DNA of 64,000 nucleotides, from the NCBI GenBank assembly GCA_017416805.1, contig JAFQBB010000020.1, positions 186,001-250,000 of the forward strand. Reading direction: 5' to 3'. This DNA comes from Bacteroidaceae bacterium. Lineage in GTDB: Bacteria; Bacteroidota; Bacteroidia; Bacteroidales; Bacteroidaceae. The translations under genes were made by a program, and so were the position numbers. Each line of letters starts with the position of its first letter. Positions within the stretch are counted from its first letter, which is position 1. The notes beneath the pieces were generated by a model. It searched no databases. It saw only the letters and a program-made list of their open reading frames with translations, and was not told the DNA's origin. This document shows, one piece after another, positions 4,566 to 62,304 of this stretch.

Positions 4566-6098
4566 ATGGCAAGAAGATTCTATTTCAGCCTCTGTCTGGC
4601 CGTCGTTTTTAGCCTCTCTCTCATGGCAGGCCGCCCTGCCCGTGTGATTATTACCGCCGGGCAATCCAACACCGATGGCCGGTGTCCCAATACCGAATTG
4701 CCTGCTTATATCAAGGCTTTGGCCAAAGATACCATTACCTTCCAGCGTGGTGCCTACAACTTTTGCCGCATATCCCAAAATCGTACGGATGGACAGTTTG
4801 AGCGCTTTTGGCCCCAAGCCACCAAGCAGGGTGTAGAGAATTCGTGGGCTTATGATGCTGTCACCTATCTGTGGCTCGACCAGATGGTGCGCGACCCTCT
4901 GTACATCATCAAATGGGCCGTTGGGGGAACTTCCATCGCTATTAATAAGAATTCAGAGAGCAGTGCCCATTGGAGTTCCGACAAGGGTTGGTTGAAACGT
5001 ACCCGTAGCACCGCTGAGGGTGGGCGCTCACTCCTTCTGTCACTCACCCGGCAGATAGATGCTTGCATAGACAGTACCCTCTCTGCATTGAAAGATGGCT
5101 ATCAGGTCGATGCCCTCCTTTGGCATCAGGGCGAGAGCGACTACAAACAAGGAAAAGCCTATTACAAGAATTTGAAGGGCGTCTTTGCCCACATCCGCCG
5201 CCATCTGACCGAGAAGACAGGCAAGGACTATTCCCGTTTGCCCATCATCATGGGCACCGTAGCCCGTAGCAACAAGTGTTATAGTGCAGAGGTGGAAAAG
5301 GCCATGAAGCGGTTGGCCGACGAAGACCCCGACATCTACCTGATAGACATGAGCAAGGCAGGTCTTCAGCGCGATCGCCTGCATTTCGATGCTCAAGCCG
5401 CTGAGTACTTGGGCATACAGGTGTATGACCGCCTGCTGAAGGTGGCTTATGCCCCCGAGGGAGTGCAGACAACAGAAGAGGGACCTTTGGCCGGCAAACG
5501 CATTGCATTCCTTGGAGACAGCTATGTGCGCAACCATCGGGAACCCGCCATGCTCACCTGGCAATACAAATTCGCCCGCAAGCATGGCATGACCTACTTC
5601 AACTATGGACGCAACGGTAGCAATGTGGCCTACAATAGCCAACAATGGGGACCTGCCATGTATGTGCGCTACAAGGATTTGCCCGCCCAATTGGACTATA
5701 TCGTAGTGGTGGGCGGACACAACGACAGTTGCAACCCCAATATCGCAGAAGAGATGGAGACGTACAAAACACGTCTGGCCGAACTCTGTGAAGGACTTAT
5801 AGCCCGCTATCCTACCGCACAGATTTTCTTCTTTACCCGTTGGGTGACGGCTGACTTTGCCGGAAGCAATTTTGAAAAAGTGGTGGATGCCACGTTGGAA
5901 GTGTGTGGCAACTATAGCATCCCGGTGTTCGACAGTGCCCGTCGGGGAGGTATCTATATAGGTAATGAGACTTTCCGCAAGACATTCCTCCAGCCCAAGA
6001 AGGGAAACACCGATACGGCCCACCTCAATGCACGCGGACATGACCGTTTCCTGCCCGTGGCCGAAGCATTCCTATTGCAATACATGCCGCGCCAGTGA
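4566..6098 (+). CDS. secreted two-domain SGNH/GDSL esterase (sialate O-acetylesterase/CE6-like plus GDSL-like)
   Basis: The 510-residue protein starts with a signal peptide ending near AGRPA. The first SGNH unit (about 25-290) has block I GQSN with Ser34, the block HQGESD, and a late D-x-x-H (DRLHFD), as in carbohydrate acetylesterases. A second unit (about 305-505) restarts with FLGDS (Ser319) and has GGHND and a terminal DTAHLNARGHDRF. It is likely a periplasmic or secreted deacetylase of glycans; which acyl substrate is unknown. It lies 8 bp after proB and 134 bp before proA, an odd place for a polysaccharide esterase. Its TGA stop is itself part of a 7-bp repeat array. Confidence 0.85.
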   Translation: MARRFYFSLCLAVVFSLSLMAGRPARVIITAGQSNTDGRCPNTELPAYIKALAKDTITFQRGAYNFCRISQNRTDGQFERFWPQATKQGVENSWAYDAVTYLWLDQMVRDPLYIIKWAVGGTSIAINKNSESSAHWSSDKGWLKRTRSTAEGGRSLLLSLTRQIDACIDSTLSALKDGYQVDALLWHQGESDYKQGKAYYKNLKGVFAHIRRHLTEKTGKDYSRLPIIMGTVARSNKCYSAEVEKAMKRLADEDPDIYLIDMSKAGLQRDRLHFDAQAAEYLGIQVYDRLLKVAYAPEGVQTTEEGPLAGKRIAFLGDSYVRNHREPAMLTWQYKFARKHGMTYFNYGRNGSNVAYNSQQWGPAMYVRYKDLPAQLDYIVVVGGHNDSCNPNIAEEMETYKTRLAELCEGLIARYPTAQIFFFTRWVTADFAGSNFEKVVDATLEVCGNYSIPVFDSARRGGIYIGNETFRKTFLQPKKGNTDTAHLNARGHDRFLPVAEAFLLQYMPRQ

Positions 6099-6190
6099 CT
6101 AGTGACTAGCTACTAGTGACTAGTGAGCAGATACGAGTGGGGCCATGTGGTATTGAACTTGTAGCTCGTAGCTGATAACCCGTAGCTCAG
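6095..6190. repeat. 7-bp-period arrays flanking a GGCCATGTGG core
   Basis: From 6095 the sequence runs GTGACTA GTGACTA, then GCTACTA, GTGACTA, GTGAGCA. The first unit contains the esterase stop codon (TGA 6096-6098). GGCCATGTGG follows at 6141-6150, the reverse complement of the CCGCATGGCC core seen elsewhere with one difference. A second array of AGCTCGT-like 7-mers covers about 6156-6190. No ORF is present. Confidence 0.75.
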
Positions 6191-6232
6191 ACATTCGGTT
6201 TTAACTCCTTATAATAAAAGATAATTTGTAAA

Positions 6233-7474
6233 ATGAAAAAGATTTTTGAACAAGTGCAGGCGGCCAGCCGCGAACTGATGATGTTGGAGGGTGACCGCAT
6301 CAACGAAATCCTGTTGGCCGTGGCCGATGAGGCCGTGGCACAAACCGACTATATCCTGGCAGAGAATGCCAAGGACTTGGCCCGTATGGACGAGGCCGAC
6401 CCGAAGTATGACCGATTGAAGCTTACCGCCGAACGCATCGGGGGCATAGCCTCCGATATGCGCAAAGTGGCCCAGTTGCCCAGTCCCCTCGGGCGTGTGT
6501 TGAAGCATCATGTCCTGCCCAACGGACTTGAACTGACCCGTGTGAGCGTGCCTTTCGGTGTGATAGGTATCATCTACGAAGCCCGCCCGAATGTGAGTTT
6601 CGACGTCTTCTCGCTCTGCCTCAAGAGTGGCAATGCCTGTGTGCTGAAAGGCGGTAGCGATGCCGATAGCTCCAATCGCGCCATTGTAGGTGTCATCCAT
6701 AGTGTGCTCAGCCGCTTCGGTGTGAATCCCCATGTGGTAGAACTTCTTCCTGCCACCCGCGAGGCCACGGCCGAGATGCTTCATGCCAACGGCTACATAG
6801 ACCTCATCATCCCACGCGGAAGCAGCAATCTTATCAACTTCGTCCGTGCCAATGCCACCATCCCTGTCATCGAGACAGGAGCCGGCATCTGTCATGCCTA
6901 TTTCGACCGTGCGGCCGATTTGGAGAAGGGACGTGCCATTGTCAACAATGCCAAGACCCGTCGCGTGAGTGTATGCAATGCCCTCGACTGCCTTGTTCTT
7001 CACGAGGAGCGTCTGTCCGACCTTCCAGTCTTGTGTGCTCCGTTGGCCGATAGCCGTGTGCTCATTTATGCCGACGAACCAGCCTATGCGGCATTGCAAG
7101 GGGCTTATCCGGCAGAGTTGCTGAAACCCGCCACCCCGGATAGTTTCGGCACCGAGTTCCTTTCTTACACCATGGCTATCAAGACTGTGCCCACGTTGGA
7201 CGCCGCCCTTGAACATATACGCCGCAACAGCTCCAAGCATAGCGAATGCATCATCACCGAAGATGAGGCTACGGCCGACCGCTTCCTACGCCTCGTGGAT
7301 GCCGCCTGTGTCTATGCCAACGCGCCCACCTCGTTCACCGATGGAGCCCAATTCGGACTTGGTGCCGAGATTGGTATCAGTACCCAGAAACTCCATGCCC
7401 GCGGCCCCATGGCCTTGGAGGAAATCACCTCCTACAAGTGGATTATCAAGGGAAATGGGCAGGTGAGAGGATAG
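6233..7474 (+). CDS. proA: gamma-glutamyl phosphate reductase (ProA)
   Basis: ProA reduces gamma-glutamyl phosphate to glutamate semialdehyde with NADPH, the second proline step. The 413-residue sequence is full length. It has the aldehyde-dehydrogenase-like pattern [20 protein letters not shown], the IPRGSSNLI loop, [10 protein letters not shown], and the catalytic cysteine in [13 protein letters not shown], plus the end motif [11 protein letters not shown]. The ATG at 6233 gives the standard N-terminus. It shares an apparent operon with proB, interrupted by the esterase gene. The TAG stop is directly followed by a duplicated ACTCTCCCCCTG word. Confidence 0.96.
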
Positions 7475-7785
7475 ACTCTCCCCCTGCGGACTCTCCCCCT
7501 GAGGGTGTGTCATAATTAACTTTTTAGACGCAGATGACGCGGATGACGCGGATTTTCTTGATTATTATACCCGATAGGTTATAATTTATCTGCGAAGTTT
7601 CCTTGAGCAAAGCGAAAAATCCGCGTCATCCGCGTCTAAAGAATGAAAAGAAAGCATTTTGACACATTCCCGTGAAATGATTTGTAAAGAGATGAAGGAA
7701 ATAATTAATAAATATAATAATAAGTAAAGACTATCCACTCCCCTCCCTTGTGGAGGGGCAAGGGGGAGGGTCTTCCGTTTAGATT
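7475..7785. repeat. repeat-filled gap with a 9-bp-unit foldback
   Basis: No gene is seen. The gap opens with two copies of ACTCTCCCCCTG at the proA stop. The word at 7507-7526 is the exact reverse complement of 3316-3335. A foldback follows: left arm 7523-7556 has three GACGCNGAT units and right arm 7615-7640 has the complementary ATCCGCGTC units ending TCTAAA. A C-rich/G-rich palindrome lies at about 7738-7772 just before argF'. Confidence 0.75.
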
Positions 7786-8742
7786 ATGAAGAACTTTACC
7801 TGTGTGCAGGACATCGGCCCGTTGGACGCCGCCCTGCAAGAAGCTTTTGAGATTAAGAAAGACCGTTTCAAATACGTAGAATTGGGACGCAACAAGACGT
7901 TGATGATGATTTTCTTCAACAGTAGTCTCCGCACCCGACTCAGCACCCAGAAGGCAGCCCTCAATCTGGGCATGAATGTCATTGTCCTCGACATCAATCA
8001 GGGAGCTTGGAAGTTGGAGACCGAACGTGGTGTCATCATGGATGGCGACAAGCCCGAACACCTGCTGGAAGCTATCCCCGTGATGGGATGCTATTGCGAT
8101 GTCATCGGTGTGCGCTCTTTTGCCCGTTTCGAGAATCGCGACTACGACTACGAAGAGGTTATCCTCAACCAGTTCATCAAGTACAGCGGCCGTCCCGTCT
8201 TCTCCATGGAGGCAGCCACACGCCACCCCCTGCAGAGCTTTGCCGACCTCATCACCATCGAGGAGTACAAGCAGACCGCCCGTCCGAAGGTAGTCCTCAC
8301 ATGGGCACCACATCCCCGTCCGCTTCCGCAAGCCGTCCCCAACTCTTTTGCCGAGTGGATGAATGCGGCCGACTATGATTTTGTCATCACCCACCCCGAA
8401 GGCTACGAGCTCGACCCCAAGTTTGTGGGAAATGCCCGCGTGGAGTACGACCAGATGAAAGCCTTCGAAGGAGCCGACTTCATCTATGCCAAGAACTGGG
8501 CCGCCTATACGGGCGACAACTACGGACAGATACTCTGCAAAGACCGTGCATGGACGGTGAGCGACCGCCAGATGGCCGTCACCAACAATGCCTACTTCAT
8601 GCACTGCCTGCCCGTGCGCCGCAATATGATTGTGACCGACGAAGTCATCGAGAGTCCCCGCTCCATCGTCATCCCCGAAGCGGCCAATCGCGAGATTTCG
8701 GCCACCGTCGTACTGAAACGGTTGATTGAAGGAATAGGTTGA
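7786..8742 (+). CDS. argF': N-succinyl-L-ornithine transcarbamylase (ArgF')
   Basis: This is a 318-residue transcarbamylase. It has the carbamoyl-phosphate motif SSLRTR (in FFNSSLRTRLSTQKAA), HPLQSFADL, and the C-terminal HCLPVRR. A proline-rich loop (APHPRPLPQAVPNSF) and overall likeness to the Bacteroides enzyme point to the variant that carbamoylates N-succinylornithine in arginine synthesis, established for Bacteroides fragilis. Ordinary OTCase or acetylornithine specificity is less likely but is not excluded by motif reading alone. It follows proB-proA, so proline and arginine genes are clustered. The 3' end carries a 17-bp tandem duplication spanning the stop codon. Confidence 0.92.
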   Translation: MKNFTCVQDIGPLDAALQEAFEIKKDRFKYVELGRNKTLMMIFFNSSLRTRLSTQKAALNLGMNVIVLDINQGAWKLETERGVIMDGDKPEHLLEAIPVMGCYCDVIGVRSFARFENRDYDYEEVILNQFIKYSGRPVFSMEAATRHPLQSFADLITIEEYKQTARPKVVLTWAPHPRPLPQAVPNSFAEWMNAADYDFVITHPEGYELDPKFVGNARVEYDQMKAFEGADFIYAKNWAAYTGDNYGQILCKDRAWTVSDRQMAVTNNAYFMHCLPVRRNMIVTDEVIESPRSIVIPEAANREISATVVLKRLIEGIG

Positions 8743-8761
8743 TTGAAGGAATAGGTTGATT
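8720..8761. repeat. 17-bp tandem duplication across the argF' stop
   Basis: GGTTGATTGAAGGAATA occurs at 8720-8736 and 8737-8753, followed by a partial third copy GGTTGATT. The TGA stop (8740-8742) is in the second unit. Reading through the duplication gives an RLIEGI-type tail. Confidence 0.85.
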
Positions 8762-8785
8762 TCCTGACTGTTATAGGTGTAAAAT

Positions 8786-8871
8786 AAGACATCCCGGCGT
8801 CACGAGAATTGACGTCGGGATGTCTTGTATAATGAGACCTCGGTGTCATGCATAGTGACGTCGGGGATGTC
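8786..8871. terminator. two related hairpins after argF'
   Basis: Hairpin 1 pairs 8786-8802 with 8810-8826 (17 bp, one G-U, 7-nt loop). Hairpin 2 (about 8834-8848 with 8856-8871) is an imperfect relative sharing TGACGTCGGG(G)ATGTC. They lie between the 3' ends of argF' and the convergent gp36-like gene, so they may terminate both. T-tracts are weak. Confidence 0.6.
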
Positions 8872-8896
8872 ATTTTGGTCCCTAATTTTGGGTGAT

Positions 8897-8944
8897 TTAC
8901 CAAATGGTCACGCGCTCAGCCTTGGGCACGAACATGCTGTCCTG
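8897..8944. repeat. 48-bp copy of the M13 peptidase 3' end
   Basis: This segment matches 11448-11495 at 47 of 48 positions. It encodes, on the minus strand, the residues QDSMFVPKAERVTIW and stop. Similarity ends exactly after the stop codon on one side and at the codons for gp36-like RQD on the other. Confidence 0.95.
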
Positions 8945-9217
8945 CCGGATGGAGGACAGTTTCTGGGGGTTGTGTATGCAGAAGATGTGATAGACGGCAA
9001 TGTCGAGTGCCATCATCAGCACCAGCGGGTGGCGCTCTTCGCCGCGGGCGCCGAACACGGCCTCCACGTCATAGACCGGGGCCAGATAGCTTTTCATCTC
9101 GCTGATGGCACGCTCTTCGCAGATGTCGATGATGGCGGCATCCTGGCGGGTCAGTGCGTCGAGGATTTCGCGATGCACGGTGGCATCATAGTCGGTGGGG
9201 TTGATGAATTGCGACAT
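8897..9217 (-). CDS. truncated Mu gp36-like (DUF1320) phage protein fused to an M13 peptidase tail
   Basis: Residues 1-92 (FINPTDYDATVHREILDALT, then IDICEERAISEMKSYLAP, then LVLMMALDIAVYHIF, then IHNPQKLSSIRQD) match the DUF1320/Mu gp36 family of virion assembly proteins. Family members normally continue with RYDRAxEWL and end near 140 residues. Here the last 14 residues (SMFVPKAERVTIW region) are those of the M13 peptidase encoded about 2.5 kb away. The 106-residue ORF is therefore a chimera of a decayed prophage gene, and function is unlikely. The upstream MuF gene in the same orientation fits Mu-like phage order with intervening genes lost. Confidence 0.75.
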   Translation of the reverse strand: MSQFINPTDYDATVHREILDALTRQDAAIIDICEERAISEMKSYLAPVYDVEAVFGARGEERHPLVLMMALDIAVYHIFCIHNPQKLSSIRQDSMFVPKAERVTIW

Positions 9218-9276
9218 GATTTTGATTTATGAGTTTTTTATTATATCCTTCATTTGTTTATTCGGAAAAATGTTTG

Positions 9277-10414: not shown

Positions 10415-10880
10415 TTCCCTTTTCTTCTATTCTTAGATTACCGTTTGAACAAACTTCGAATCATAATTGAAATGTAAAAGAATATTACCAAAATATCCAA
10501 TTTTGTAACTTGTTGATTGATAAGGCGGTATAGAAGAGGTAGGGAAAAGGTACACTTTAGCCTACATTAGGTACGACTTGAGGTAGGCTAAAGTGTACCT
10601 TTTCCCTACCTCTTCTTGGGGTGTTTTTTGACATGTCATAATATTTCAGCAAAATGAATGACATTGCAATCGACTTCTCAGACAGCCCCGTTTTTTAAGT
10701 ACAAAAAAATACCGCCCGGCGGAGCACCCGCGAGCGGTTTGACGAAATAAGGAGGAGACTGGCGGATAGTGAATAGCTACAAGGGCCATGCGGCGTGAAA
10801 TAGCCAGACTATCAAACCTGTCTGCCGACAGGCAGGTCGTAAACAAACAGTGTAAATAGCCAAATCGTAAATAGAGCGAA
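10415..10880. other. non-coding gap in the prophage remnant
   Basis: No credible gene is seen. The gap holds the 34-bp palindrome (10532-10616), a reversed core GGCCATGCGGC at 10784-10794 preceded by a 7-bp-like array, an imperfect palindrome CCTGTCTGCCGACAGGCAGG at 10817-10836, and a degenerate GTAAATA/CGTAAAT array to about 10874. Confidence 0.6.
10532..10616. repeat. perfect inverted repeat, 34-bp arms, 17-nt loop
   Basis: Arms at 10532-10565 and 10583-10616 are exact reverse complements. Each begins or ends with the AGAAGAGGTAGGGAAAAGG word or its complement. The stem is much longer than a typical intrinsic terminator, and only a short T-run (about 10624-10629) follows. It could be a processed RNA stem, a bidirectional transcription stop or a recombination relic. 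Confidence 0.9.
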
Positions 10881-11334: not shown

Positions 11335-11337
11335 AAA

Positions 11338-14386: not shown

Positions 14387-14397
14387 AGTCGGATATA

Positions 14398-20547: not shown

Positions 20548-20587
20548 GAGTCTGCTATGAGTGATGAGCTACGAACTGCAATTTGCG

Positions 20588-20615
20588 GGTGACGAACTTC
20601 GGGAGTCACCTTTTT
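20588..20615 (+). terminator. intrinsic terminator after the S9 gene
   Basis: GGTGAC (20588-20593) pairs with GTCACC (20605-20610), with an 11-nt loop, followed by five T. Confidence 0.65.
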
Positions 20616-20635
20616 ATCGTTGCCATCATTCATTC

Positions 20636-20763
20636 TTTAGACGCAGGTGACGTGGATAACATGGATTAATACCTATGGGTAATAAATTATCCGTGTTATC
20701 CGCGTCATCCGCGTCTAAAATGCTTTGTACCGCATGGCCACTAGTAGCTAGTAGCTAGTCACT
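20636..20763. repeat. 9-bp-unit foldback, then CCGCATGGCC core and 7-bp array
   Basis: Left arm 20636-20670 has TTTAGACGCAGG and 9-bp units; right arm about 20686-20720 has ATCCGTGTT ATCCGCGTC and a third ATCCGCGTC ending TCTAAA. CCGCATGGCC follows at 20730-20739. CTAGTAG units at 20741-20763 then run over the stop codon of the small minus-strand gene. Confidence 0.8.
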
Positions 20764-20938
20764 CTTTCGCCTGCCACTTGCAACGCACGGGTGAAAAGAT
20801 TTTCTCCTCCTTCTTCAGCGTTGCCATAGCTTTATCTACTTCCTTCTTGTCAAGTCCAGTTTCCTTTGCCAATGTGGTGGCATTCACGGGAGCACCCAGC
20901 TCCTTCATCTTTGCCAATACAAGTTCTACAGTATCCAT
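20759..20938 (-). CDS. small winged-helix-like DNA-binding protein (59 aa)
   Basis: ATG 20936-20938 opens a 59-codon frame reading MDTVELVLAKMKELGAPV, then NATTLAKETGLDKKEVDKA, then MATLKKEEKIFSPVRC, ending KWQAKE. The pattern helix-turn-helix (LAKETGLDKKEVDKAMATLKK) followed by a beta-wing-like KIFSPVRCKW fits a minimal winged-helix domain. Similar small proteins are annotated as transcriptional regulators in Bacteroides. The gene stands alone between the S9 and PL11 genes. Targets are unknown. The end of the gene coincides with a 7-bp repeat array. Confidence 0.72.
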   Translation of the reverse strand: MDTVELVLAKMKELGAPVNATTLAKETGLDKKEVDKAMATLKKEEKIFSPVRCKWQAKE

Positions 20939-21094: not shown

Positions 21095-24000
21095 ATGAAA
21101 ATAAAGAAAACAATTATATGCAGCATCTTATTGTTGTCAATGGCCATGACGGCTGGTGCCCAACGCATGATGGAGAACTTGAGTCGGGGGCTGGTGGCGG
21201 TGAAAACCACCGAGGGTGTTTATCTCAGCTGGCGTCTGTTGGGACAAGAGTGGTACGATGTCACCTACAATGTCTATCGCGATGGCGTGCGAGTGAATAG
21301 CGAGCCGTTGGAAACTTCCAATTATCAGGATGCAGGGGGGACAGAGTCTTCTACCTATTCCGTCAAGGCCGTAGTGCGTGGGGTGGAGCAGGAGGGCTCG
21401 GAAACGGTCACTCCCTGGAAAGGACAATACTTGGACATACCGATGCAACCCGTATTGGATGCATCAGGAGCGGATATTACAGACAAATATTCGCTCAACG
21501 ATGCCAGTGCCGCTGACCTTGATGGTGATGGGGACTATGAACTCATCGTGAAGCGCATGAATTCCGACTTCTCGAAGGCGAATACGGCTTACACGCTGTT
21601 TCAAGCCTACAAACTGGACGGGACATTGATGTGGACGATTGATGTGGGGCCCAATATCATGAACTCAAGACATGTGGAGACCAATTGCATGGCTTATGAT
21701 TTCAATCAGGATGGAAAGGCAGAGGTGGTTATCCGTTTGGCCGATGGAAGTGTCTTGCCCGACGGCACGGTTGTGGGTAATCCTTTGGCCAATTATCGGC
21801 CAGCAGGTGAATACGACGGGTTGACCATCTATCAGACGCAGTATGACGAATGGCTATACGTGCTCAACGGTGAGACGGGGGCTATGATAGATAATGTGAA
21901 ATTCGATGAGACAACCAATAACTTGGCTATCCGCAACGCTGCATTCTGGTGGGAGGGAAACAGCAAAGCTTATGGACACCGGGCCAACAAGTTCCATTTT
22001 GGTGCTCCCTATCTGGACGGTCGCAATCCCAGCATTTATGTGGGGCGAGGATGTTATACGAATATCCACATGGCCACTTTTGATCTGGTGGACAATAAAC
22101 TGGTGCTCCGGTGGACCTATGCCAATGACAATCCGGCCAGCAAGTTTTACGGACAGGGTTATCACAACTTTTCCATCGTGGATGTGGATGAAGACGGTCG
22201 TGATGAAATATGTCATGGCAATATGGTCATTGATGAATATGGCAAAGAACTCAGTTCGACAGGATTGGGGCACGGTGATGCACAACATTATGGCGATCTC
22301 GACCCCTACCGCAAAGGGCTTGAAGGTTTCCGTTGTTTGGAGGATAATCCGGGGGCTGTATTGGTCGATGCAACCACCAATGAAATACTTTTCCGTTGGC
22401 TTCGTGCCAATGACAATGGGCGATGTCTGGCCGGAAACTTTACGGACAAGTGGCCGGGAGCAGAATTGTGGACAACTGATGGAAAACTATGGAGCGCCAC
22501 ACTCAGCCGAGGAGCTGATGAAACGGTTGCATCATCGGCACCGGGAGTGACGATGAATTTCCGCATCTATTGGGATGGCGATATACTGGAAGAATCGTTT
22601 GACTATGCCAGTCGCAATGATAATGGAGACGGCATTGAAGGGGCTGTGTATAAGTATGGTAACAGTTCGCCCATCTTTGTCAGCAATGGATGCATGACCA
22701 ACAACAACACGAAGGGCAATCCCTGCATCCAGGCCGACCTCTTCGGAGATTGGCGCGAAGAGATAGTGCTCCGCACCAATGATGACAGGAAACTGCGTAT
22801 CTACACCACCATCATTCCTACGGCTCACCGGAATTATACCCTGATGCACGACAAGCAATACCGGCAAGCCATTTACTGGCAGATGACGGCTTATAACCAA
22901 CCGCCACATGTAAGTTACTTTTTGGGAAATGCCGAAGGTATCACTGTGCCGCCTCCACCTGTGATGACAAACGGACGTACGTTGGTGGATACGGAGATTA
23001 CCTCCATGCACAACGACAAGCACATCCTGTTGACTGATGCAGAGGGAGGTGTCGTCAATGTCGCCGAGGGAGCTTCGCCCCATATTCTCACGGTGAATAG
23101 TTTGAAGAACAATTGGACATTGGAGGGCGTCCCATTCACAGGAGATATGCGTCTTGTCAAACAGGGACAAGGAGCACTTACGTTCAGTGGCAATCAAGTT
23201 TATACAGGAAAGACTGAACTGTGGGAGGGTATTACCCATTTTGAAGGCTCTATGCAGAGTCCTGTATGGCTGAACCGTTTTGCCGAACTCAATACGGGAG
23301 CTATATATAATAAAGGTATAGAGATGGAGTATGGAGCCATCCTGCGTGTGGGAGGGGCAGACCATAAGGGTACAGTCACGGCCTCTTCATTTAACGTAAA
23401 GAGAGGCGCGGTCGTGGAGATGGATATCTATTCAGACGATTTGACGGCAGACAAATTGATGGCAGACGGAACCTTGGTGATTGCCGATGAGGCAGTCTTC
23501 CGCTTTGTATCACATAATCGGGTAGGAGAAGAGAAGCCTGTGGCCGGGGAATATCTGATAGCCGAAGCTACAGAATGGAATGCCAATGTAGAAAAGATTC
23601 ATGTTGAAGGCTTGCAGGGCGTAGCTTGTGAACTGAAGATTGCAGAAGGTAAAATGTACCTTGTCATATATGACATGCGTACGGCTACAGATGTGGTATG
23701 GAGTGGCGTCAATGGTAATGTATGGGACCTTTTCCATACAGAGAACTTCACGGTGGACGGTGTACCTACCACCTTTGTGACTGGTGACCGTGTGGCGTTT
23801 GACGAAACGGCCTCCACCAAAACGGTGACGATAAATGAAGAGGTGGTGCCTGAGACCGTATCTGTCAAAGGAAGTGCCGGATATACGTTCAATGGTGATG
23901 GTGGTATCGGAGGAGATGCCAGTTTCACAAAAGACGGTAACGGTATATTGACTATCAACAACATCAACCCCTATACGGGAAAGACCATTATTGCAGGCGG

Positions 24001-25537
24001 AACCGTCAAGCCTGCCTCTTTGGCTACGGCACAAAGCGCTGGTTCGTTGGGCGCTCTCAGCAACGATGCCGCCAATTTCGTGATACAGAACGGTGCGCAA
24101 ATGATTATCAGTGGTGAGGCTTTCCAAGAAAGTCCGATGACTTTGGGCGAAGGGGGCGGCATACTGAACGTGAGCGGCGCACTCCATCTGAAGGGACAAA
24201 TCAAAGGTACGACATTGACCAAGAATGGTGGTGGCACACTCCATATCTATGCCACACCCAATACCTATAAGAAGACCGTCTTGAATGGGGGAACCCTGAA
24301 AATTGCAGAAGAGTATAACGGTACGGTGAATGGCATGTTGGGTGATACCGTTGTGTTGAATGGAGGTATGTTGCAATGCAAAGAGGGTAATTCATCCTAT
24401 AGCAAAGCTTCGTGGCATCTTGTCGTACCTACAGGGAAAACGGCTACCATCCGTATGGACGGACGATGCAATTATACAGGCTCATTGACTGGGGCAGGGA
24501 CATTGAATGTCTATATTCCTTATGTGCGTTCTTATCTGCAAGGAGATTGGTCGAAGTTTGAGGGGACAGTCAGCTGTTCGCAGGGCACTAACGGTGATTT
24601 CACTTTTGACAACAACTATGGTATGCCATTGGCTACACTGAATGTAGAAAGTGGATGTGTCGTCCGCAATAACAAAGGAAGCAATATGCGGATAGGCGCC
24701 GCCACGGGAATCGGTACATTAGGCGGAACTCATGGATGGACAATCGGTAAGGATGATGTCGGGACGAATACGTTTGATGGTGTGATAGAAGGGTCACTTA
24801 CCAAAGTCGGAAGCAATACATTGCGCCTGGAGGGAGCCAATGTCTTCACGGGTGCAACGGCGGTGAAGGGTGGCACTTTGCTTGTGGCGAATACAGGGAA
24901 GAGTGTCAGTGCTACAGGTACAGGCAATCTGACGGTATATGACGGAGCGGTATTGACCGGTTGGGGGTATATCGGCAACAAGAAGGTGACCATTGCTGAT
25001 GGCGGAACCTTTCGGCCAGGACTGAATTATATTGGTCGATTGACCGTTGCTTCTGATGTGGAACTTCAAAAAAGTGGCGCCATTGAATGGCGCTTGAACA
25101 GTAAGACCAGTGTGGCTACTGTCACTGGAGTAGGTGAAATGGTGCTCAATGGAACTGTACGTGTTATATTGAAGGATGGTTTTGTCCCGGAATTGGGTCA
25201 TAGCTTTGAATTGTGGAATTGTGAAGAGGTCGATGCAACCAGTGCCCCCCTGTTGGATTTGCCGGAACTTTCTGAAGGCTTGGCTTGGGATACGACAGAC
25301 TTGTTCACCTCTACGGGCACTTTGCGTGTGACAGATGCTGCGGGCATCCGTTTGGAAAGTTGGGATGAAGAGGTTCGTGTGACCGTTGTAACATTGGATG
25401 GTGTACAGGTCGGGGCTTTCAGATGTGTCTATAATCAAATGCAAGAAACGCTGGATGCAACTTCTTTGCCGCAAGGGATTTATCTCATGAAGATAGAAGG
25501 GAAGAATGGTTGTACTATTCAGAAGGTTTGGAGATGA
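21095..25537 (+). CDS. PL11 rhamnogalacturonan lyase with autotransporter-type beta-strand repeats and C-terminal tail
   Basis: The product is 1480 residues, about twice the length of a typical PL11 lyase. A signal peptide (ending AGAQ) is followed by the PL11 module (about 24-640): RGLVAVKTTEGVYLSWRLLG, DLDGDGDYELIVK, DFNQDGKAEVV, GHGDAQHYGDLDP and NGCMTNNNTKGNPCIQADLFGDWREE-type blocks. The rest contains at least four YTGKT-type autotransporter-associated strand repeats (about 690, 955, 1045 and 1245), ending LPQGIYLMKIEGKNGC and QKVWR, which resembles a type IX secretion sorting tail. PL11 enzymes cleave the rhamnogalacturonan-I backbone. The repeats may form a beta-helix stalk or display unit. 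It pairs functionally with the GH106-like enzyme upstream. Confidence 0.88.
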   Translation: MKIKKTIICSILLLSMAMTAGAQRMMENLSRGLVAVKTTEGVYLSWRLLGQEWYDVTYNVYRDGVRVNSEPLETSNYQDAGGTESSTYSVKAVVRGVEQEGSETVTPWKGQYLDIPMQPVLDASGADITDKYSLNDASAADLDGDGDYELIVKRMNSDFSKANTAYTLFQAYKLDGTLMWTIDVGPNIMNSRHVETNCMAYDFNQDGKAEVVIRLADGSVLPDGTVVGNPLANYRPAGEYDGLTIYQTQYDEWLYVLNGETGAMIDNVKFDETTNNLAIRNAAFWWEGNSKAYGHRANKFHFGAPYLDGRNPSIYVGRGCYTNIHMATFDLVDNKLVLRWTYANDNPASKFYGQGYHNFSIVDVDEDGRDEICHGNMVIDEYGKELSSTGLGHGDAQHYGDLDPYRKGLEGFRCLEDNPGAVLVDATTNEILFRWLRANDNGRCLAGNFTDKWPGAELWTTDGKLWSATLSRGADETVASSAPGVTMNFRIYWDGDILEESFDYASRNDNGDGIEGAVYKYGNSSPIFVSNGCMTNNNTKGNPCIQADLFGDWREEIVLRTNDDRKLRIYTTIIPTAHRNYTLMHDKQYRQAIYWQMTAYNQPPHVSYFLGNAEGITVPPPPVMTNGRTLVDTEITSMHNDKHILLTDAEGGVVNVAEGASPHILTVNSLKNNWTLEGVPFTGDMRLVKQGQGALTFSGNQVYTGKTELWEGITHFEGSMQSPVWLNRFAELNTGAIYNKGIEMEYGAILRVGGADHKGTVTASSFNVKRGAVVEMDIYSDDLTADKLMADGTLVIADEAVFRFVSHNRVGEEKPVAGEYLIAEATEWNANVEKIHVEGLQGVACELKIAEGKMYLVIYDMRTATDVVWSGVNGNVWDLFHTENFTVDGVPTTFVTGDRVAFDETASTKTVTINEEVVPETVSVKGSAGYTFNGDGGIGGDASFTKDGNGILTINNINPYTGKTIIAGGTVKPASLATAQSAGSLGALSNDAANFVIQNGAQMIISGEAFQESPMTLGEGGGILNVSGALHLKGQIKGTTLTKNGGGTLHIYATPNTYKKTVLNGGTLKIAEEYNGTVNGMLGDTVVLNGGMLQCKEGNSSYSKASWHLVVPTGKTATIRMDGRCNYTGSLTGAGTLNVYIPYVRSYLQGDWSKFEGTVSCSQGTNGDFTFDNNYGMPLATLNVESGCVVRNNKGSNMRIGAATGIGTLGGTHGWTIGKDDVGTNTFDGVIEGSLTKVGSNTLRLEGANVFTGATAVKGGTLLVANTGKSVSATGTGNLTVYDGAVLTGWGYIGNKKVTIADGGTFRPGLNYIGRLTVASDVELQKSGAIEWRLNSKTSVATVTGVGEMVLNGTVRVILKDGFVPELGHSFELWNCEEVDATSAPLLDLPELSEGLAWDTTDLFTSTGTLRVTDAAGIRLESWDEEVRVTVVTLDGVQVGAFRCVYNQMQETLDATSLPQGIYLMKIEGKNGCTIQKVWR

Positions 25538-56730: not shown

Positions 56731-56767
56731 CAGCCGAGAATTTACTAACATATCATAGATTTATATC

Positions 56768-58000
56768 ATGAATAAAAAACAACTGCTTTTTGTTGGCATT
56801 GCTTGCTTGTTTGCAGGTATGCCTCTGGTGGGTTCGGCTCAAAAGGCTGGCAGGTCCCCTTATGAGAGCTATCTTTTTGCTTTTTTCTCGGACAATTCAC
56901 CTTATGGTGAACAGATTCGTTATGCGGTGAGTGATGATGGATATAATTATCGTTCGTTGAACGATGGACGACCTGTCGTATCCTCAGATTCCATTGCTCG
57001 CAAGCGTGGTGTACGTGATCCGCATATTATCCGTGGTGTCGATGGCAAGACATTTTATATGGTACTTACAGACATGCGTTCGAGCCAAGGGTGGCAGAGT
57101 AATGACGGTTTGGTGCTGATGAAAAGTACTGATATGTTGCATTGGCAGCATACAGCCATCCATTTCCCTGAGCGTTTTCCCAATTTGGAAGGTTTTGATG
57201 AGAAGAATCTGCATGCAGTGTGGGCTCCCCAGACTATTTGGGACGAAAAAGAGCAGAAGTATATGATATATTACTCTATCGGGCGTCATGATTGGGAGTA
57301 TCCGACTGATGATCCGCGTTTCAATCAACCATACTTCAAGATATTCTACTCTTATGCCAATGAAGACTTTACAGATCTCACAGAGCCTCGTTTGCTCTTT
57401 GATTTCGGTACGGCAGCTATTGATGGTGATATCGTGTATGATGAGAAGAATCAGGAATACGTACTGTTCTTCAAAGACGAAGGACGTTCGGTGATGAATA
57501 AGGACTTCCGTACCCGTCAAGGGGTTATGCGTGCCACTTCAAAGAGTCTTACCGGTCCATATACTGTAGAGTATCGTCATCTGCAGAAGCCCGGACAATA
57601 TCCGGTAGAGGGTTCCAGCGTATTTCCGCTTATCGGAAGCGATGAGTATGTGCTGATGTACGATTGTTATGCGAATGGTCATTATCAGTTCTGCAAGAGT
57701 TCAGATCTGAAGAACTTTGAATTTGTGCAGAATACTCCAACTCGTGGCAATTTCACTCCCCGTCATGGATCGGTGATGCATATTACGCAGGCTGAGTGTG
57801 AATATTTGGAGGCTTGGGATGGATTGCTGGAGACACTTGATGAATTGAGAAGAATCCCCGTGCCTGCTTTTACATTGGAGCAACTCGAGTTGCGCAAGGA
57901 CATGATGGACGAAGCTAAGGATGTGTTGGCTGCGCCTTCTACAAAGAAAGATTATATTAAAACCACGAAGAAACTCCGCAAGTTCATAGGGAAGTTCTGA
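56768..58000 (+). CDS. GH43 family glycoside hydrolase (second)
   Basis: The 410-residue enzyme has a signal peptide (VGSAQ) and a single GH43 propeller: RGVRDPHIIRGVDGKTFYMVLTD (base Asp), AVWAPQTIWDEKEQKYMIYYS, AIDGDIVYDEKNQEYVLFFKDE and YPVEGSSVFP (acid Glu). A C-terminal helical tail (EQLELRKDMMDEAKDVL) follows. The exact activity (xylosidase, arabinofuranosidase or exo-arabinanase) cannot be told. A bidirectional-type terminator follows. Confidence 0.87.
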   Translation: MNKKQLLFVGIACLFAGMPLVGSAQKAGRSPYESYLFAFFSDNSPYGEQIRYAVSDDGYNYRSLNDGRPVVSSDSIARKRGVRDPHIIRGVDGKTFYMVLTDMRSSQGWQSNDGLVLMKSTDMLHWQHTAIHFPERFPNLEGFDEKNLHAVWAPQTIWDEKEQKYMIYYSIGRHDWEYPTDDPRFNQPYFKIFYSYANEDFTDLTEPRLLFDFGTAAIDGDIVYDEKNQEYVLFFKDEGRSVMNKDFRTRQGVMRATSKSLTGPYTVEYRHLQKPGQYPVEGSSVFPLIGSDEYVLMYDCYANGHYQFCKSSDLKNFEFVQNTPTRGNFTPRHGSVMHITQAECEYLEAWDGLLETLDELRRIPVPAFTLEQLELRKDMMDEAKDVLAAPSTKKDYIKTTKKLRKFIGKF

Positions 58001-58041
58001 TAGCGAAATTCTGTATATATTTATATAATGTATATGAAAAA

Positions 58042-58067
58042 GGGGGTGCATTGAATGCATCCCCTTT
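58042..58067 (+). terminator. terminator after the GH43 gene
   Basis: GGGGGTGCAT, loop TGA, ATGCATCCCC forms a near-perfect stem (one G-U) followed by TTTATTTTC. On the minus strand A-to-T symmetry allows it to serve the convergent pepD as well. Confidence 0.8.
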
Positions 58068-58124
58068 ATTTTCTTATTTGCGTCTAAAAGATGAATTATA
58101 CACATCTTTTCTTCTGCATAATTC

Positions 58125-59585
58125 TTATTCTTTACAAGGCACCTGCTTCAGAGTTTCCAACAGGAAGTCGTAGAACTTCTGTACTGAAGGGATGAACACG
58201 CGCTCGTCGGGAGAATGAGGTGAACGCAAGGTCGGGCCGAAGGAAATCATGTCGAGTCCCGGATGGGTGGCACCGATGATACCGCATTCGAGTCCTGCAT
58301 GGATCACTTTCACTTCGGGTTGTTTGCCGAACTGGATGTTATAGCTCTCCTTCATGGCTTTCAGGATGGGCGAGTTCACGTTGGGTTGCCAGCCTGAGTA
58401 GCTTCCGCTCAGCTCCACCTTCATACCTGCCATATTGAAGCAGCACTCCAGTGATGTGGCCACATATTCCTTCATCGATTCGCTACTGCTACGTGCCAGG
58501 ATGTTGAACTCCGCGTGTCCGTCACCTATGCGGATAATGGCCAGGTTGGATGAGGTTTCCACTGTGTCGGGGATGGTGGGGATGTAGCGCACCACACCGT
58601 CATGGCAAGCAAAGATAGCGTCCACGAGGTTGTCCTGAATCTCTTCGGGGACTTCGCCCTTCGGAAGCTCTACGCGTTCGGCCTTCAACGTGATAGGGGT
58701 CTCTACGGCGCTGTACTCTTCGTTGAACAGTTCTTCGCAATACTTCACCAGCCCCATCAGTTCCTCCTCGTTTTCAGTGGGGATGGTCAATACGGTTTCA
58801 CATTCGCGGGGGATAGCGTTGCGCATGTTTCCTCCGCTCCAGCTGGCCAGGCGTGCTTCATAGTCGGCAATGGCTTCGCGCACCAGACGCACCATCAATT
58901 TGTTGGCGTTGGCACGACCTTCGCAGATTTCGAGTCCTGAGTGTCCGCCGCGCAACCCTTTGAGGGTAATCTTCACTGCCACGTCCGTTGGGTCAGTCTC
59001 CACCTCCTTGTATTCGAGTGATGCCGTCACGTCGATACCGCCGGCACATCCGATGTAGAGTTCGCCCTCTTCTTCCGAATCGAGGTTGAGCAACATTTTT
59101 CCCTTCAGCGTACCCTCTTTCAATCCGAAAGCACCGTACATGCCCGTCTCCTCATCGGCCGTGATGAGAGCTTCCAACGGACCGTGTACCAGTGTATTGT
59201 CCTCCATGATGGCCATGATGGCGGCCACGCCCATACCGTTGTCGGCACCGAGTGTCGTACCCTTGGCACGTACCCATTCACCGTCGATGTAAGTTTGTAT
59301 GGGATCTTTTACAAAGTCGTGTATTGTGTCGTTATTCTTCTGTGGCACCATGTCCATGTGGGCCTGCAGGACAACCGTTTCGCGATTTTCCATACCTGCC
59401 GTAGCCGGTTTGCGGTAGATGATGTTCCCAGCTTCGTCCATGCAGGTCTCCACACCGACCTGTTTGCCAAAGTCGAGCAGGAATTGTTGGATAGCTTCGA
59501 GGTGTCCCGATGGACGGGGTACTTGTGTCAGCGAGTAGAAATGTTTCCACACTGCCTGTGGAGCCAATGATTGGATAGTTTCCAT
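58125..59585 (-). CDS. pepD: aminoacyl-histidine dipeptidase (PepD)
   Basis: PepD is a cytosolic M20-family zinc dipeptidase that cleaves carnosine-like and other Xaa-His dipeptides. The 486-residue protein matches the family length. Metal and catalytic sites are VVLQAHMDMVPQKN, TLGADNGMGVA, ITADEETGMYGAFGL and LNLDSEEEGELYIGCAGG. The lid-domain HSGLEICEGRANAN and terminal HAGLECGIIGATHPGLDMISFGP, then SPHSPDERVFI, are characteristic. The gene is alone, with flanking repeats on its upstream side. Confidence 0.95.
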   Translation of the reverse strand: METIQSLAPQAVWKHFYSLTQVPRPSGHLEAIQQFLLDFGKQVGVETCMDEAGNIIYRKPATAGMENRETVVLQAHMDMVPQKNNDTIHDFVKDPIQTYIDGEWVRAKGTTLGADNGMGVAAIMAIMEDNTLVHGPLEALITADEETGMYGAFGLKEGTLKGKMLLNLDSEEEGELYIGCAGGIDVTASLEYKEVETDPTDVAVKITLKGLRGGHSGLEICEGRANANKLMVRLVREAIADYEARLASWSGGNMRNAIPRECETVLTIPTENEEELMGLVKYCEELFNEEYSAVETPITLKAERVELPKGEVPEEIQDNLVDAIFACHDGVVRYIPTIPDTVETSSNLAIIRIGDGHAEFNILARSSSESMKEYVATSLECCFNMAGMKVELSGSYSGWQPNVNSPILKAMKESYNIQFGKQPEVKVIHAGLECGIIGATHPGLDMISFGPTLRSPHSPDERVFIPSVQKFYDFLLETLKQVPCKE

Positions 59586-59636
59586 ATTTCAGTTTTTATT
59601 TATAGGTTAATAGTTCTTGTTCTATTTTTGAGGATA

Positions 59637-59727
59637 GGCCACGGATGACACTGATGATAGGGATTTACACAGATTTTTTTCTTTGTTTGTCAGTGTTCTT
59701 CTGTTTCATCGTTTCATCTGTGGTCTA
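59637..59727. repeat. 9-bp-unit foldback ending on the YbhN-like stop
   Basis: Left arm 59637-59680 has GGCCACGGATGA, CACTGATGA and ACACAGATT units. The right arm (about 59697-59727) is a degenerate reverse complement (TTTCATCTGTGGTC) whose end is the stop codon of the next gene (59725-59727). Confidence 0.7.
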
Positions 59728-60717
59728 TTGTTTCAGTAGTACTTTTGTCCTCCCCAATGCCACCATGCTCCATACCCCCAACAGGATGAGAGCGGCCGTC
59801 TGGGTGCCGTGTACGATGAGGGCAAACACTCCTGCGTCAGTTTCGCTCACTCCGTAGAGCATTGTCAGCATCGAGATGACCACATAATGCCACGGGCCTG
59901 CCCCGTTGGGTGTGGGCACAAGCACGGCGAAACTTGTGGTGATGAACACCGCAAGGCCTGCTCTGAAGCCCAAGTCGGCCGTGAACGGAAAGCAATAGAA
60001 CGTCAGGTAGAACTGCATGATATAGCTTCCCCAAATGGCAGCGCTATAGAAAAGGAAGAGCGGTAAGTTCTTGACCTTTCGTACCGAACAGATTCCTTCC
60101 CAAAATCCGCGCAAGGTGCCCTTTACTTTTTCAGCAAATGAGAATCGCCGAAGCACGTAGTAAGCGCCCACGCAGAGCGCTATCAATACACCTGCCCACA
60201 GGTAGAGACTTCCTGATGTAAGGAGCGAACGTAACGAGTCGAAGTTTGTCCCCTTCTCAACAAAGAAGGTGCGTAACACATCAAACTGGAGCATCACCAC
60301 CAGCAGGGCTATGAGCATGACACACACCATATCCACCACACGTTCCGTCACCACCGTACCTAACGATTTGGTGAACGACACCCCATCGTATCGCTTCAGC
60401 ACACCGCATCGTGCCACCTCGCCCGAGCGGGGAATCACCAGGCTGGCCGCGTAGGATAGGAAAATCGAGTTGATGCACGTCCCCGTGCGCGGCCGTTCGC
60501 CCAATGGCTCCAACGTCTGTTTCCAACGGAGACCACGGAACACATGGCTCAGCACCTCGAATACCAGCGACAATGCCAGCCACCACAGGTTCATCTCGTA
60601 CAGAAACGTGTGGCTCACGGCCGAGAAGTCGAAGTCGCGATATGTCCAATAGAGTATCCCTCCACCCAATGCGAGGGGAAACAATATCTTTATGAGGCTT
60701 TTCAGGTGTTTTCTCAT
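59725..60717 (-). CDS. YbhN/UPF0104-type membrane protein (lysylphosphatidylglycerol synthase TM-like)
   Basis: This 330-residue polytopic protein has about eight helices and the PF03706 landmarks: GLRWKQTLEPLG, FLSYAASLVIPRSGEVARCGVLKRYDGV, VVTERVVDMVCVML and FVLVPTPNGAGPWHYV-like end (FAVLVPTPNGAGPWHYVVIS). It lacks the MprF catalytic domain. Relatives are thought to move lipids or polyprenyl-linked glycans across the inner membrane, but the substrate is unknown. No glycosyltransferase genes are adjacent. Confidence 0.88.
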   Translation of the reverse strand: MRKHLKSLIKILFPLALGGGILYWTYRDFDFSAVSHTFLYEMNLWWLALSLVFEVLSHVFRGLRWKQTLEPLGERPRTGTCINSIFLSYAASLVIPRSGEVARCGVLKRYDGVSFTKSLGTVVTERVVDMVCVMLIALLVVMLQFDVLRTFFVEKGTNFDSLRSLLTSGSLYLWAGVLIALCVGAYYVLRRFSFAEKVKGTLRGFWEGICSVRKVKNLPLFLFYSAAIWGSYIMQFYLTFYCFPFTADLGFRAGLAVFITTSFAVLVPTPNGAGPWHYVVISMLTMLYGVSETDAGVFALIVHGTQTAALILLGVWSMVALGRTKVLLKQ

Positions 60718-61100
60718 ATCTGCTCGTTATTCCTTGCAAAGGAACAACTTTTATTTGAGTTGGCAAAACCAAAATCTATAAAAAGAGTGAAGACGATGCT
60801 ACAAGGAACATGCAGGATTGCAACGAAAGATTGGCCGTAAATCCTAACTCAAAACTCAGAACTCAGAACCCCAAAAATCAGTACTCTTCGAGGTAATTCC
60901 CGTTCCCTTTAACGGTAACTTTTGTATCCTAACGTTTCCACTTTTTTATTTCACCGTAGAAAAATTAAGGAAACTGTAGTTTGTTGATTTTCAGATTGGT
61001 ATATGCTTTTCTTTGAGAATCCCCTATTTTGAAGGTAAAGAATGCAAAAAGATGGAAATGTAAAGCAAAAAGGGTCTGTGATGTGAGCGAAGGGGGAATC
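60718..61100. other. non-coding gap with a short 7-bp array
   Basis: Only one feature stands out: ACTCAAA ACTCAGA ACTCAGA at about 60847-60869. A weak minus-strand -7 box (CAAAGGAA 60737-60744) precedes the YbhN-like gene. Nothing else is supported. Confidence 0.6.
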
Positions 61101-62024
61101 TTACCTTGCTCCGAGATAAAGGAATATCATACCTAAGAGGACGAGGAGGAGGTCGATGGCTTTGCTCTTCAGGTTTCTTTCGCGGAAGAACATGGCGCCA
61201 CAGAGGAAGGAGACGATGACACTGCTACGGCGCACCATGGAGACGACGGAGATGAGTGCTCCATCGAGGCTGAGCGAATAGAAATAGACGAAGTCGGCGG
61301 CAGAGAGGAACAGGGAGATGAGCGGTATGCACCAGTGCCAATGGAAAGGGGTGGTGGTCTTGCGTTTGGGATACCATAGGAACATGAGTACGGTTCCCAT
61401 CATGATGAGTTGGTAGATGTTGTACCACGATTGTACCACCATGCGGTCGAGCCCGAGGCCGCCATCGGTGACGGGGGCCATCAGGTATTTGTCATACAAT
61501 CCGCTGACAGCTCCCAGCATGGAGGCCAGCACTACGAAGTATATCCATTTGTCGTGCTTGAAGTCTATGCCTTCCTTTTTCCCGCTCCGGCTCAGCATGA
61601 AGAAGGAGATGATGGCCAGCAATACACCAATCCACTGATAGAGGTTGAGGCGTTCGCCAAAGACGAGCAGGGCGCCGACCAGTACCATGACGGGGCGTGT
61701 GGCATTGATGGGGCCTACGATGGTGAGCGGCAGGTGTTTCATGCCAAAGTAGCCGAATACCCATGAGGAGAGTACGATGAGCGATTTCAGTACCACATAC
61801 TTGTGTACCTCCCAACCGGCCGTAGGGACATGGAAGATGGTGCCTTCCAACGCATTCCCCTTTTCCAGAGAGAGGAGGATGAACGGGAGAAATATAAGAC
61901 TTGAAAACAGGGTGTTGAGAAACAATACGGGAATCACCGCATTTTCCTTCAACGATTGTTTCTTGAACACATCATAGAATCCCAGCAATGTGGCTGAGAG
62001 AAAAGCTAATCCTAACCAGAGCAC
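61101..62024 (-). CDS. EamA/DMT-superfamily transporter
   Basis: The 307-residue protein has ten predicted helices in two EamA repeats (LWLGLAFLSATLLGFYDVFKK; then WIYFVVLASMLGAVSGLYDKYLM). TIVGPINATRPVMVLVGALLVFGERLN and LSLDGALISVVSMVRRSSVIVS are the conserved loops. DMT proteins export or exchange small metabolites such as amino acids or nucleotides; specificity is unknown. The gene starts next to a repeat-rich gap and is probably monocistronic. Confidence 0.9.
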   Translation of the reverse strand: MLWLGLAFLSATLLGFYDVFKKQSLKENAVIPVLFLNTLFSSLIFLPFILLSLEKGNALEGTIFHVPTAGWEVHKYVVLKSLIVLSSWVFGYFGMKHLPLTIVGPINATRPVMVLVGALLVFGERLNLYQWIGVLLAIISFFMLSRSGKKEGIDFKHDKWIYFVVLASMLGAVSGLYDKYLMAPVTDGGLGLDRMVVQSWYNIYQLIMMGTVLMFLWYPKRKTTTPFHWHWCIPLISLFLSAADFVYFYSLSLDGALISVVSMVRRSSVIVSFLCGAMFFRERNLKSKAIDLLLVLLGMIFLYLGAR

Positions 62025-62062
62025 TTTTGATTTATGATTTATGAATTATGATTTCTTTTTTG

Positions 62063-62304
62063 AACACTGAGACGCAGAGTTTTTTTGAGTTCTGAGTTTT
62101 GAGTTCTGAGTTTTGAGTGAGTAGTGCCGCATGGCCAATTTCAATCCGCGTCATCTGCGTCATCTGCGGATGAAAAATTTTCCGCGCCGCATGGCCACTC
62201 AGCACTCATAACTCAGCACTCAGCACTCAAAAGGAGGAGCGCCGCATGGCCTACTCGTCACTCGTAGCTCGTCACTCGTAGCTCGTAGCCCGTCACTCGT
62301 AGCT
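62063..62304. repeat. triple GCCGCATGGCC + short-repeat array block
   Basis: Three exact 11-bp cores lie at 62126-62136, 62186-62196 and 62241-62251. Each is followed by a different array: 9-bp ATCTGCGTC units; 7-bp CACTCAG units (62197-62230); and 7-bp CTCGTAG/CTCGTCA units (62252-62304) that stop three bases before the truA stop. GAGTTCT/GAGTTTT units (62090-62120) and an 8-bp-type word (62065-62080) precede the first core. Confidence 0.88.

Follow-up and report, generated by a model that had tools for sequence, protein, structure and literature searches.

An 11-bp word, GCCGCATGGCC (the core), recurs between the genes of an uncultured Bacteroidaceae bacterium next to tandem arrays of short units, and the unit changes from copy to copy. 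It was first noticed in a 64,000-nucleotide stretch of the draft genome (GCA_017416805.1, contig JAFQBB010000020.1, positions 186,001 to 250,000), the whole of which is called the window below. We found that in sister species the core often lies at the centre of an inverted repeat with arrays as arms, that neighbouring modules assort at the core, that the same gene spacers turn over between relatives, and that array-flanked copies belong, as far as sampled, to one clade. We tentatively propose, at a probability somewhat short of even, that the core is the apex of a family of non-autonomous intergenic hairpins that would spread by copying and exchange their arms by template switching at the core.

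Core copies and the arrays beside them

The window's own genome (G000), a 3.16-Mb draft in 64 contigs that is 91% complete, was compared with relatives of the same uncultured genus (G001-G014; 15 genomes including G000). Loci and spacers fetched from these genomes carry L-numbers (e.g., L093), and gene orientations come from a crude open reading frame (ORF) caller. Arrays were scored with an autocorrelation script, either by a strict score at a distance of at most 60 bp or by a looser score in a 90-bp flank.

The genome-wide search that a sequence-only reading of the window had called for gave 23 exact cores, all of them inspected, and 0 copies of the control, the same word read backwards; the core is thus not explained by base composition. 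Because the copies cluster, the 23 are not independent cases. The window holds eight sites with at most one mismatch to the core, against 1.43 expected and a maximum of 4 in 100 shuffles; three of them (4463, 7404 and 17358) are coding and lack arrays.

A strict array lies within 60 bp of 17 of the 23 exact cores. Over the 384 kb of G000 examined, 3.7% of bases are this close to such an array, but the fairer figure for comparison is 17.8% of intergenic bases (14.0% away from cores). By the looser score, the flanks of 21 of the 23 contain an array. The corresponding background of 4.5% at random window positions is too lenient a control, being unmatched for intergenic position; the matched values are 30.5% of random intergenic positions and 23.9% of those away from cores. 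The excess of arrays beside cores stands, though it is smaller than the unmatched control implied, and a chance origin of the association is ruled out by the core counts, the shuffles and the matched intergenic controls.

The 384 kb comprise the window and 17 further stretches, most of which were picked for holding a core or a known array. They contain 96 arrays, 84 of them intergenic, with a unit period of 7 bp in 52 and 9 bp in 22 of these 84. In the window, 10 arrays were detected at a score of 14 and none in shuffles (four each at thresholds 13, 15 and 17), and 319 of the 324 array bases are intergenic.

These results bear out part of what the sequence-only reading had observed. The exact cores on the plus strand at 62126, 62186 and 62241 are as it described, as is the reversed one at 10784 (exact, minus strand). 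The form placed near 20730 is ACCGCATGGCC at 20729, with one change, whereas the site at 6141, described as a reversed core with one change, is in fact ACCACATGGCC, with two. Its statement that every copy adjoins an array holds for about 21 of the 23 copies under the looser score and fails for exceptions such as 10784, which has no clear array (no strict one within 60 bp) and lies inside a small ORF of the crude caller.

Inverted arms, modules and turnover at the core

The core frequently lies in the middle of an inverted repeat in G006, G007 and G008, and each arm is then an array of a single 7-8 bp unit; the sequence-only reading had overlooked this feature of the related species. A typical G007 copy consists of (AGTTGACA)n, a short spacer ending in AGT, the core and (TGTCAACT)n. 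We counted copies in which an 8-mer is shared in inverted orientation across the core and compared them with 500 swapped-flank controls. Such pairing occurred in 14 of 20 exact copies in G007 (control mean 8.3, maximum 13) and in 6 of 8 in G008 (mean 2.2, maximum 5); the 5 of 8 in G006 exceeded the control mean of 2.2 but not the maximum of 6.

Six elements folded as single-stranded DNA were all far more stable than their shuffles, with z of -4.3 to -6.4 for five core-bearing elements and -7.9 for the centre of a separate miniature inverted-repeat transposable element (MITE) with 9-bp units, described below. A GCC-GCAT-GGC tip was predicted in all four folded exact-core elements, one of which is a joined sequence; in two of these folds a bulge on the 5' side spans 6-7 bases, in a third it is smaller, and the fourth has a side hairpin. 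The variant core from G008 showed no tip in its predicted fold. The apex is common to seven unit families: it is the exact core between inverted arms of AGTTGACA, GTGCTAAT, CTACGAG and (short) TTCTTCACTC units, a core with one change between TGAGTTA/ACTCAGC arms (L253) and TAATTCA arms (L335:1980), and a core with three changes between TTTACAA arms (L378). CTACGAG/CTCGTAA units with alternating variants also make up two long 7-bp arrays of G000, about 280 and 500 bp in length (L340 12972-13252 and L341 7686-8183).

The copies in G000 are mostly composites; in the window, for example, inverted arms at 62083-62118 and 62196-62229 flank a 9-bp module that bears a core at each end. Across 39 tabulated core or near-core sites there is a recurrent polarity, often with AGT or CGC before the core and ACT or AACT after it. 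The gene to the right is directed toward the core in 25 of 37 copies, a count that rests on crude ORFs and on copies that are not independent. For a comparison of neighbouring modules, L335:1980 and L345:5975 were left out, and the remaining 37 copies gave 666 pairs. Modules were shared on both sides of the core in 12 pairs, on the right only in 52, on the left only in 24 and on neither side in 578. Thus 76 of the 88 pairs with a shared neighbour module share one side only, indicating that similarity reaching the core usually ends there. Of 12 nine-bp modules ending at a core, 8 were seen by eye to start at one too, and near-identical core-module-core blocks recur at several places. A 9-bp module with its core is present at C36:25597-25657 and missing at C36:26250 beside similar neighbours.

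The sequence-only reading had proposed a same-locus comparison with related genomes. At orthologous spacers the core was found to be present, changed or missing, its arms differed, or the element was absent altogether. At the spacer next to a truA-like gene (window 62025-62306), eight genomes differ: G000 has the composite, G006 a CCCTCCC hairpin with an inner array, and G007 and G008 a GAAGAACG/TTCACTC hairpin without the core, while no clear array was found there in G002, G004, G005 or G009. Arms of the AGTTGACA type accompany the core of G000 and G007 at the L001 spacer, where G003 has another hairpin and G002 a plain 46-bp spacer. Fifteen G007 core loci were compared (a sixteenth was left out for its repetitive flank), of which 10 gave a doubly bounded spacer in G008 or G006, yielding 15 comparisons classed by eye. 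The exact core was kept in two and changed in two; one, the G008 slot at L084, has the same arms with the core missing; seven have other arrays or repeats without the core, and three have no array. Slots without an array were seen at L083 and L091 (G008), L097 (G006) and L003 (G003).

The L093 spacer was compared in 13 genomes. G007 and G006 carry GTGCTAAT arms with the core, and their unit numbers differ beside the unchanged core. G008 has TTTACAA arms with the apex ACCGCACGGCA, whereas G000 combines arms of the CAGAGACA type with a CTCGTAG array and lacks the core. A CCCTCCC hairpin occupies the spacer in G003 and unrelated sequence that of G009, and in G002 and six distant members the spacer is short. 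As G008 groups with G006 in a tree of the flanks (support 0.80), its arms at L093 were probably replaced, with a second insertion as a possible alternative.

Taken together, the statement of the sequence-only reading that a fixed core goes with changing arrays holds genome-wide and across species, and at one orthologous spacer with a core that carries three changes. Its interpretation, which invoked replication or recombination instead of the mere copying of one element, is supported in part: modules do assort at the core, but copying also occurs, as the recurrent core-module-core blocks show.

Distribution across genomes and features of the window

The exact core is present in 9 of the 15 genus genomes, G000 included, and many copies are chance matches in coding sequence. 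Array-flanked exact copies by the looser score number 14 of 20 in G007, 6 of 8 in G006, 5 of 8 in G008 and 2 of 4 in G002, and one of the nine examined in G003 (10 present). None of the 10 exact cores examined in G001, G012 and G014 (4 of 8, 3 of 11 and 3 of 4 copies, respectively) is array-flanked. G000, G002, G003, G006, G007 and G008 are counted as carriers of array-flanked cores (n = 6) and the other nine genomes as non-carriers. The stricter 14-mer MGYGCCGCATGGCC is present in 51 of 399 genomes of the family, most often in G000 (19 copies) and G007 (13), with no more than 5 copies in any other, and 0 of 25 fetched matches in other genera are array-flanked. These counts do not support a family-wide spread of the exact core with arrays, which appears, as far as sampled, restricted to one clade. 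Among degenerate sites, 11 of 88 with one change, 11 of 801 with two and 16 of 5,625 with three lie inside array hairpins, in loci largely fetched for cores or arrays.

Inverted arrays as such reach further. A pattern scan of named genomes for AGTTGACA inverted arrays gave at least 116 stretches, and the 80 matches listed include Prevotella, Bacteroides, Phocaeicola, Parabacteroides, Dysgonamonadaceae, Niastella and one Jacksonbacteria draft. Of 120 inverted-array centres, 25 are within three changes of the core, mostly in the sheep-gut assemblies RGIG6190 and RGIG6310, indicating that other clades use other centres. A AGTTAACG inverted array (L237 3735-3804) is also present in a Candidatus Jacksonbacteria draft, far outside Bacteroidota. 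Viral contigs gave 0 matches to one core-plus-TTGTCAAC pattern, and one 281-bp composite had no match in phages and a single 36-bp array match on a Parabacteroides distasonis plasmid.

The features of the window are collected in Table 1. An Rfam scan of 61900-62400 returned a single sub-threshold match to a small nucleolar RNA, which was disregarded. Synteny with G002 breaks at 20559-20741, where the flanking stretches, 98% and 93% identical, lie on different G002 contigs; the other stretches compared are 67% to 83% identical, with a few at 95-98%. This break suggests a recent exchange with its breakpoint at the array spacer. A large ORF at 21095-25537 encodes rhamnogalacturonan lyase domains and, after them, passenger-associated transport repeats and a segment that weakly matches a secretion tail.

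Table 1 Core copies, arrays and adjoining genes in the window (positions within the window).
Feature	Position	Strand	Remark
7-bp array AGTGACT	6094..6126	+	Stop codon for the SASA/GDSL hydrolase ORF upstream (4566-6098) lies in the first bases
Core variant ACCACATGGCC, 2 changes	6141..6151	-	
MITE copy	7501-7670		GAGGGTGTGTCA-type ends, 9-bp inverted arrays GACGCGGAT, centre TTATACCCGATAGGTTATAA
Exact core	10784..10794	-	Nearby 7-bp periodicity weak, by eye
9-bp array TTATCCGCG/TCATCCGCG	20687..20715	+	By eye, right arm of a hairpin of 9-bp units
Core variant ACCGCATGGCC, 1 change	20729..20739	+	Orthologous core and array in G002 (L033)
Short CTAGTAG/CTAGTCA array	20740..20763	+	Reaches the end of a small minus-strand ORF (20759-20938)
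EamA transporter gene	61101-62024	-	
7-bp array TTTATGA	62025..62054	+	In the spacer between the truA-like and EamA genes
7-bp array TGAGTTC/TGAGTTT	62083..62118	+	Left arm, inverse of ACTCAGC
Core copy 1	62126..62136	+	
9-bp module ATCCGCGTC/ATCTGCGTC	62137..62185	+	Between two cores
Core copy 2	62186..62196	+	
7-bp array CACTCAG	62196..62229	+	Right arm, inverse of 62083-62118
Core copy 3	62241..62251	+	
7-bp array CTCGTAG/CTCGTCA	62253..62304	+	Stops 2 bp short of the truA-like ORF
tRNA pseudouridine synthase gene, truA-like	62307-63068	-	

Candidate mechanisms and known systems

In the model that we tentatively favour, an element would consist of an array of 7-9 bp units, a short stretch often ending in AGT, the core, whose GCC/GGC stem would close a GCAT loop, and an inverted array, and would occupy gene spacers in one clade of the uncultured genus. 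Copies would spread inside the genome, and slippage would lengthen or shorten the arms. The core would be the place at which one array is swapped for another: in the simplest case a replicating strand might pause at the hairpin tip, switch to another core and copy the array beyond it, and an occasional switch back at a further core could leave a core-module-core composite. The anatomy in sister species, the copy number, the restriction of the array-flanked exact core to one clade, the module assortment and the spacer turnover were observed; copying as the mode of spread, template switching instead of an enzyme and formation of the hairpin in the cell are what we infer.

Several observations weigh against this model. 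In G000, 7 of 23 copies show inverted pairing over the core, which does not exceed the control (mean 6.2, maximum 12), so the hairpin design rests on the sister species, and just two of the four predicted tips adjoin a large one-sided bulge. Neither arm exactly repeats the other: the variable unit position is unmirrored between them (56 of 118, 58.5 expected), as are the unit states at matching positions (72 of 171, 86 expected). These unmirrored states also speak against one arm having been fold-back-copied from the other. Replacement of the arms with retention of the core is indicated by one slot, L093, where the core differs at three positions and the element may instead be a second, independent insertion. 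By eye, no constant target duplication is present at the empty sites compared, with a possible 8-9 bp duplication in one case (L003 against G003). Two-change cores lie in array hairpins at L040 (G001), L428 (G004) and L241 (a Bacteroides draft), two of these genomes being supposed non-carriers; such cases are suggestive only of a core that may predate the clade and have had a wider, older spread. Finally, nothing in the sequences compared shows movement or template switching directly.

The chief rival is a dedicated recombinase acting on the core. The core would then be a site-specific recombination site, attC-like in being recognised as a structured single strand, and a module with its core would insert at another core, cassette fashion. 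The assortment of modules at the core, the core-module-core composites and the module-plus-core unit present at one place on C36 and missing at another beside similar neighbours all fit such a system. We nevertheless regard it as rather unlikely, as a core is missing from the other end of 4 of the 12 nine-bp modules that end at one, and no candidate enzyme emerged from a recombinase search that was limited to PF01797 and PF00078. PF00078, a reverse transcriptase, was rejected as a partner, its presence not tracking the core: it occurs in 7 of 15 genomes, of which three are among the 6 carriers (G000 has one match) and four among the 9 non-carriers. A nearly closed relative (G010:C1) has 13 PF00078 matches, most with 476-aa frames, which would fit an element present in many copies, for instance a group II intron. 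The other family, PF01797, comprises the REP-associated tyrosine (Y1, HUH) transposases, and the sequence-only reading had suggested looking for one of these; such an enzyme would mobilise elements of the REP/REPIN type. Those elements resemble ours as intergenic hairpins with a small tip (PMC3116915; this paper and those cited below are drawn on in excerpt), and PF01797 exceeds the cut-off in 3 of 6 carriers (G003, G007 and G008) and 2 of 9 non-carriers, with an intact, RAYT-like 343-aa frame in G007 (L162 1261-2292) and G008 (L161 967-1998). PF01797 gave 0 matches in the host genome G000, which has the most exact copies and is 91% complete, and likewise in G002 (72%) and G006 (76%), an absence that is weak because the drafts are incomplete. 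No array-flanked core was found within about 1.5 kb on each side of the transposase genes of G003, G007 and G008, the sole near-core there lying inside the transposase frame itself, and the arms are unrelated arrays, not conserved REP sequence; mobilisation of this type thus seems very improbable.

Movement in trans by the transposase of an insertion sequence (IS), with the arrays as cargo of a MITE, is distinctly unlikely, even though 9-bp arrays of this genus do occur within a clear MITE. This separate element, part of which resembles the 9-bp module next to the core, has GAGGGTGTGTCA/TGACACACCCTC-type ends, 9-bp arrays and an invariant centre, TTATACCCGATAGGTTATAA, which with at most two changes is found in 39 copies in G000 (0 for controls), 24 in G008 and 16 in G006, several copies lying at contig ends. 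A MITE with a minisatellite is also known from Porphyromonas gingivalis (PMC4596501). Terminal inverted repeats are present on the separate 9-bp MITE, but inspection by eye, made without an IS search, revealed neither these nor any other shared terminal repeat beyond the arms in the core elements, nor is there, by eye, a constant target duplication. As for selection, the hairpin might be kept as an RNA structure or as a binding site for a nucleoid or regulatory protein, with arms that drift while symmetry and tip are preserved. As this would predict, arms at a given spacer repeatedly form inverted repeats even where they are unrelated, and paired heptamer arrays of Geobacter have been interpreted as putative global regulator sites (PMC2700814). 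We consider it quite improbable, given that several relatives' spacers lack any array, that unit changes are unmirrored between arms, and that G003, whose L093 flanks are 90% identical to those of G007, has an array beside just one of its nine examined exact cores.

A bolder form of the template-switching model, which we hold to be rather doubtful, would make the core a dedicated exchange point, with cassette-like, transposase-independent shuffling of unrelated arrays at a constant tip and other tips in other clades. If it is true, the inverted arrays with other centres across Bacteroidota would together make up a single general class of modular DNA between genes, so far undescribed. The constant 11-bp tip, together with the empty, swapped and slipped states of sister species, forms a natural before-and-after series from which the generating process can be read. 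Since the inverted-array design with other centres recurs across Bacteroidota, an answer would bear on the spacers of many gut bacteria, and also on assembly breaks caused by repeats.

STRRs are intergenic heptamer tandem repeats of cyanobacteria. Small dispersed repeats of 20-odd bp in Nostoc, some of them in or beside heptamer arrays, were reportedly described by Elhai in 2008. In the open-licence literature, a scope outside which most subscription papers fall, we came across no description of one constant core that many arrays adjoin, and among the matches listed for text searches with five units and the core, the titles were unrelated to bacterial repeats. Intergenic heptamer arrays have long been noted, with no settled origin in the excerpted literature consulted. 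They occur in Bacteroidetes, cyanobacteria and Beggiatoaceae (PMC4679880), which also recounts the LSSR (Mrazek 2007) and TAACTGA arrays. Our arrays share both traits of STRR and LSSR, tandem units of 5-11 bp, mainly 7, above chance, and location between genes; like them, they form many sets per genome, are missing at the same spacer of relatives and occur in some Bacteroidetes (PMC4679880). They differ in that STRR and LSSR are described in that excerpt as direct arrays of one unit, with other heptamers beside, whereas here a constant core joins several unit families and the arrays are often inverted arms. The 'global regulator' sites of Geobacter metallireducens are likewise multicopy, with heptamer arrays that lie mostly in pairs and are drawn as the two strands of a loop, but the excerpt of PMC2700814 describes no constant core on different units. 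BrickBuilt/MITE464 of P. gingivalis also places tandem repeats in a small intergenic element of a Bacteroidales genome, with units of 23 and 41 bp and IS5-like terminal repeats (PMC4596501), unlike the core elements, at which none were seen. REPINs, like our elements, are non-autonomous intergenic hairpins at many sites. No match to their Y1 transposase (RAYT) was found in G000, and REPINs have conserved ends and a variable spacer (PMC3116915), whereas the elements described here combine variable arms with a conserved tip.

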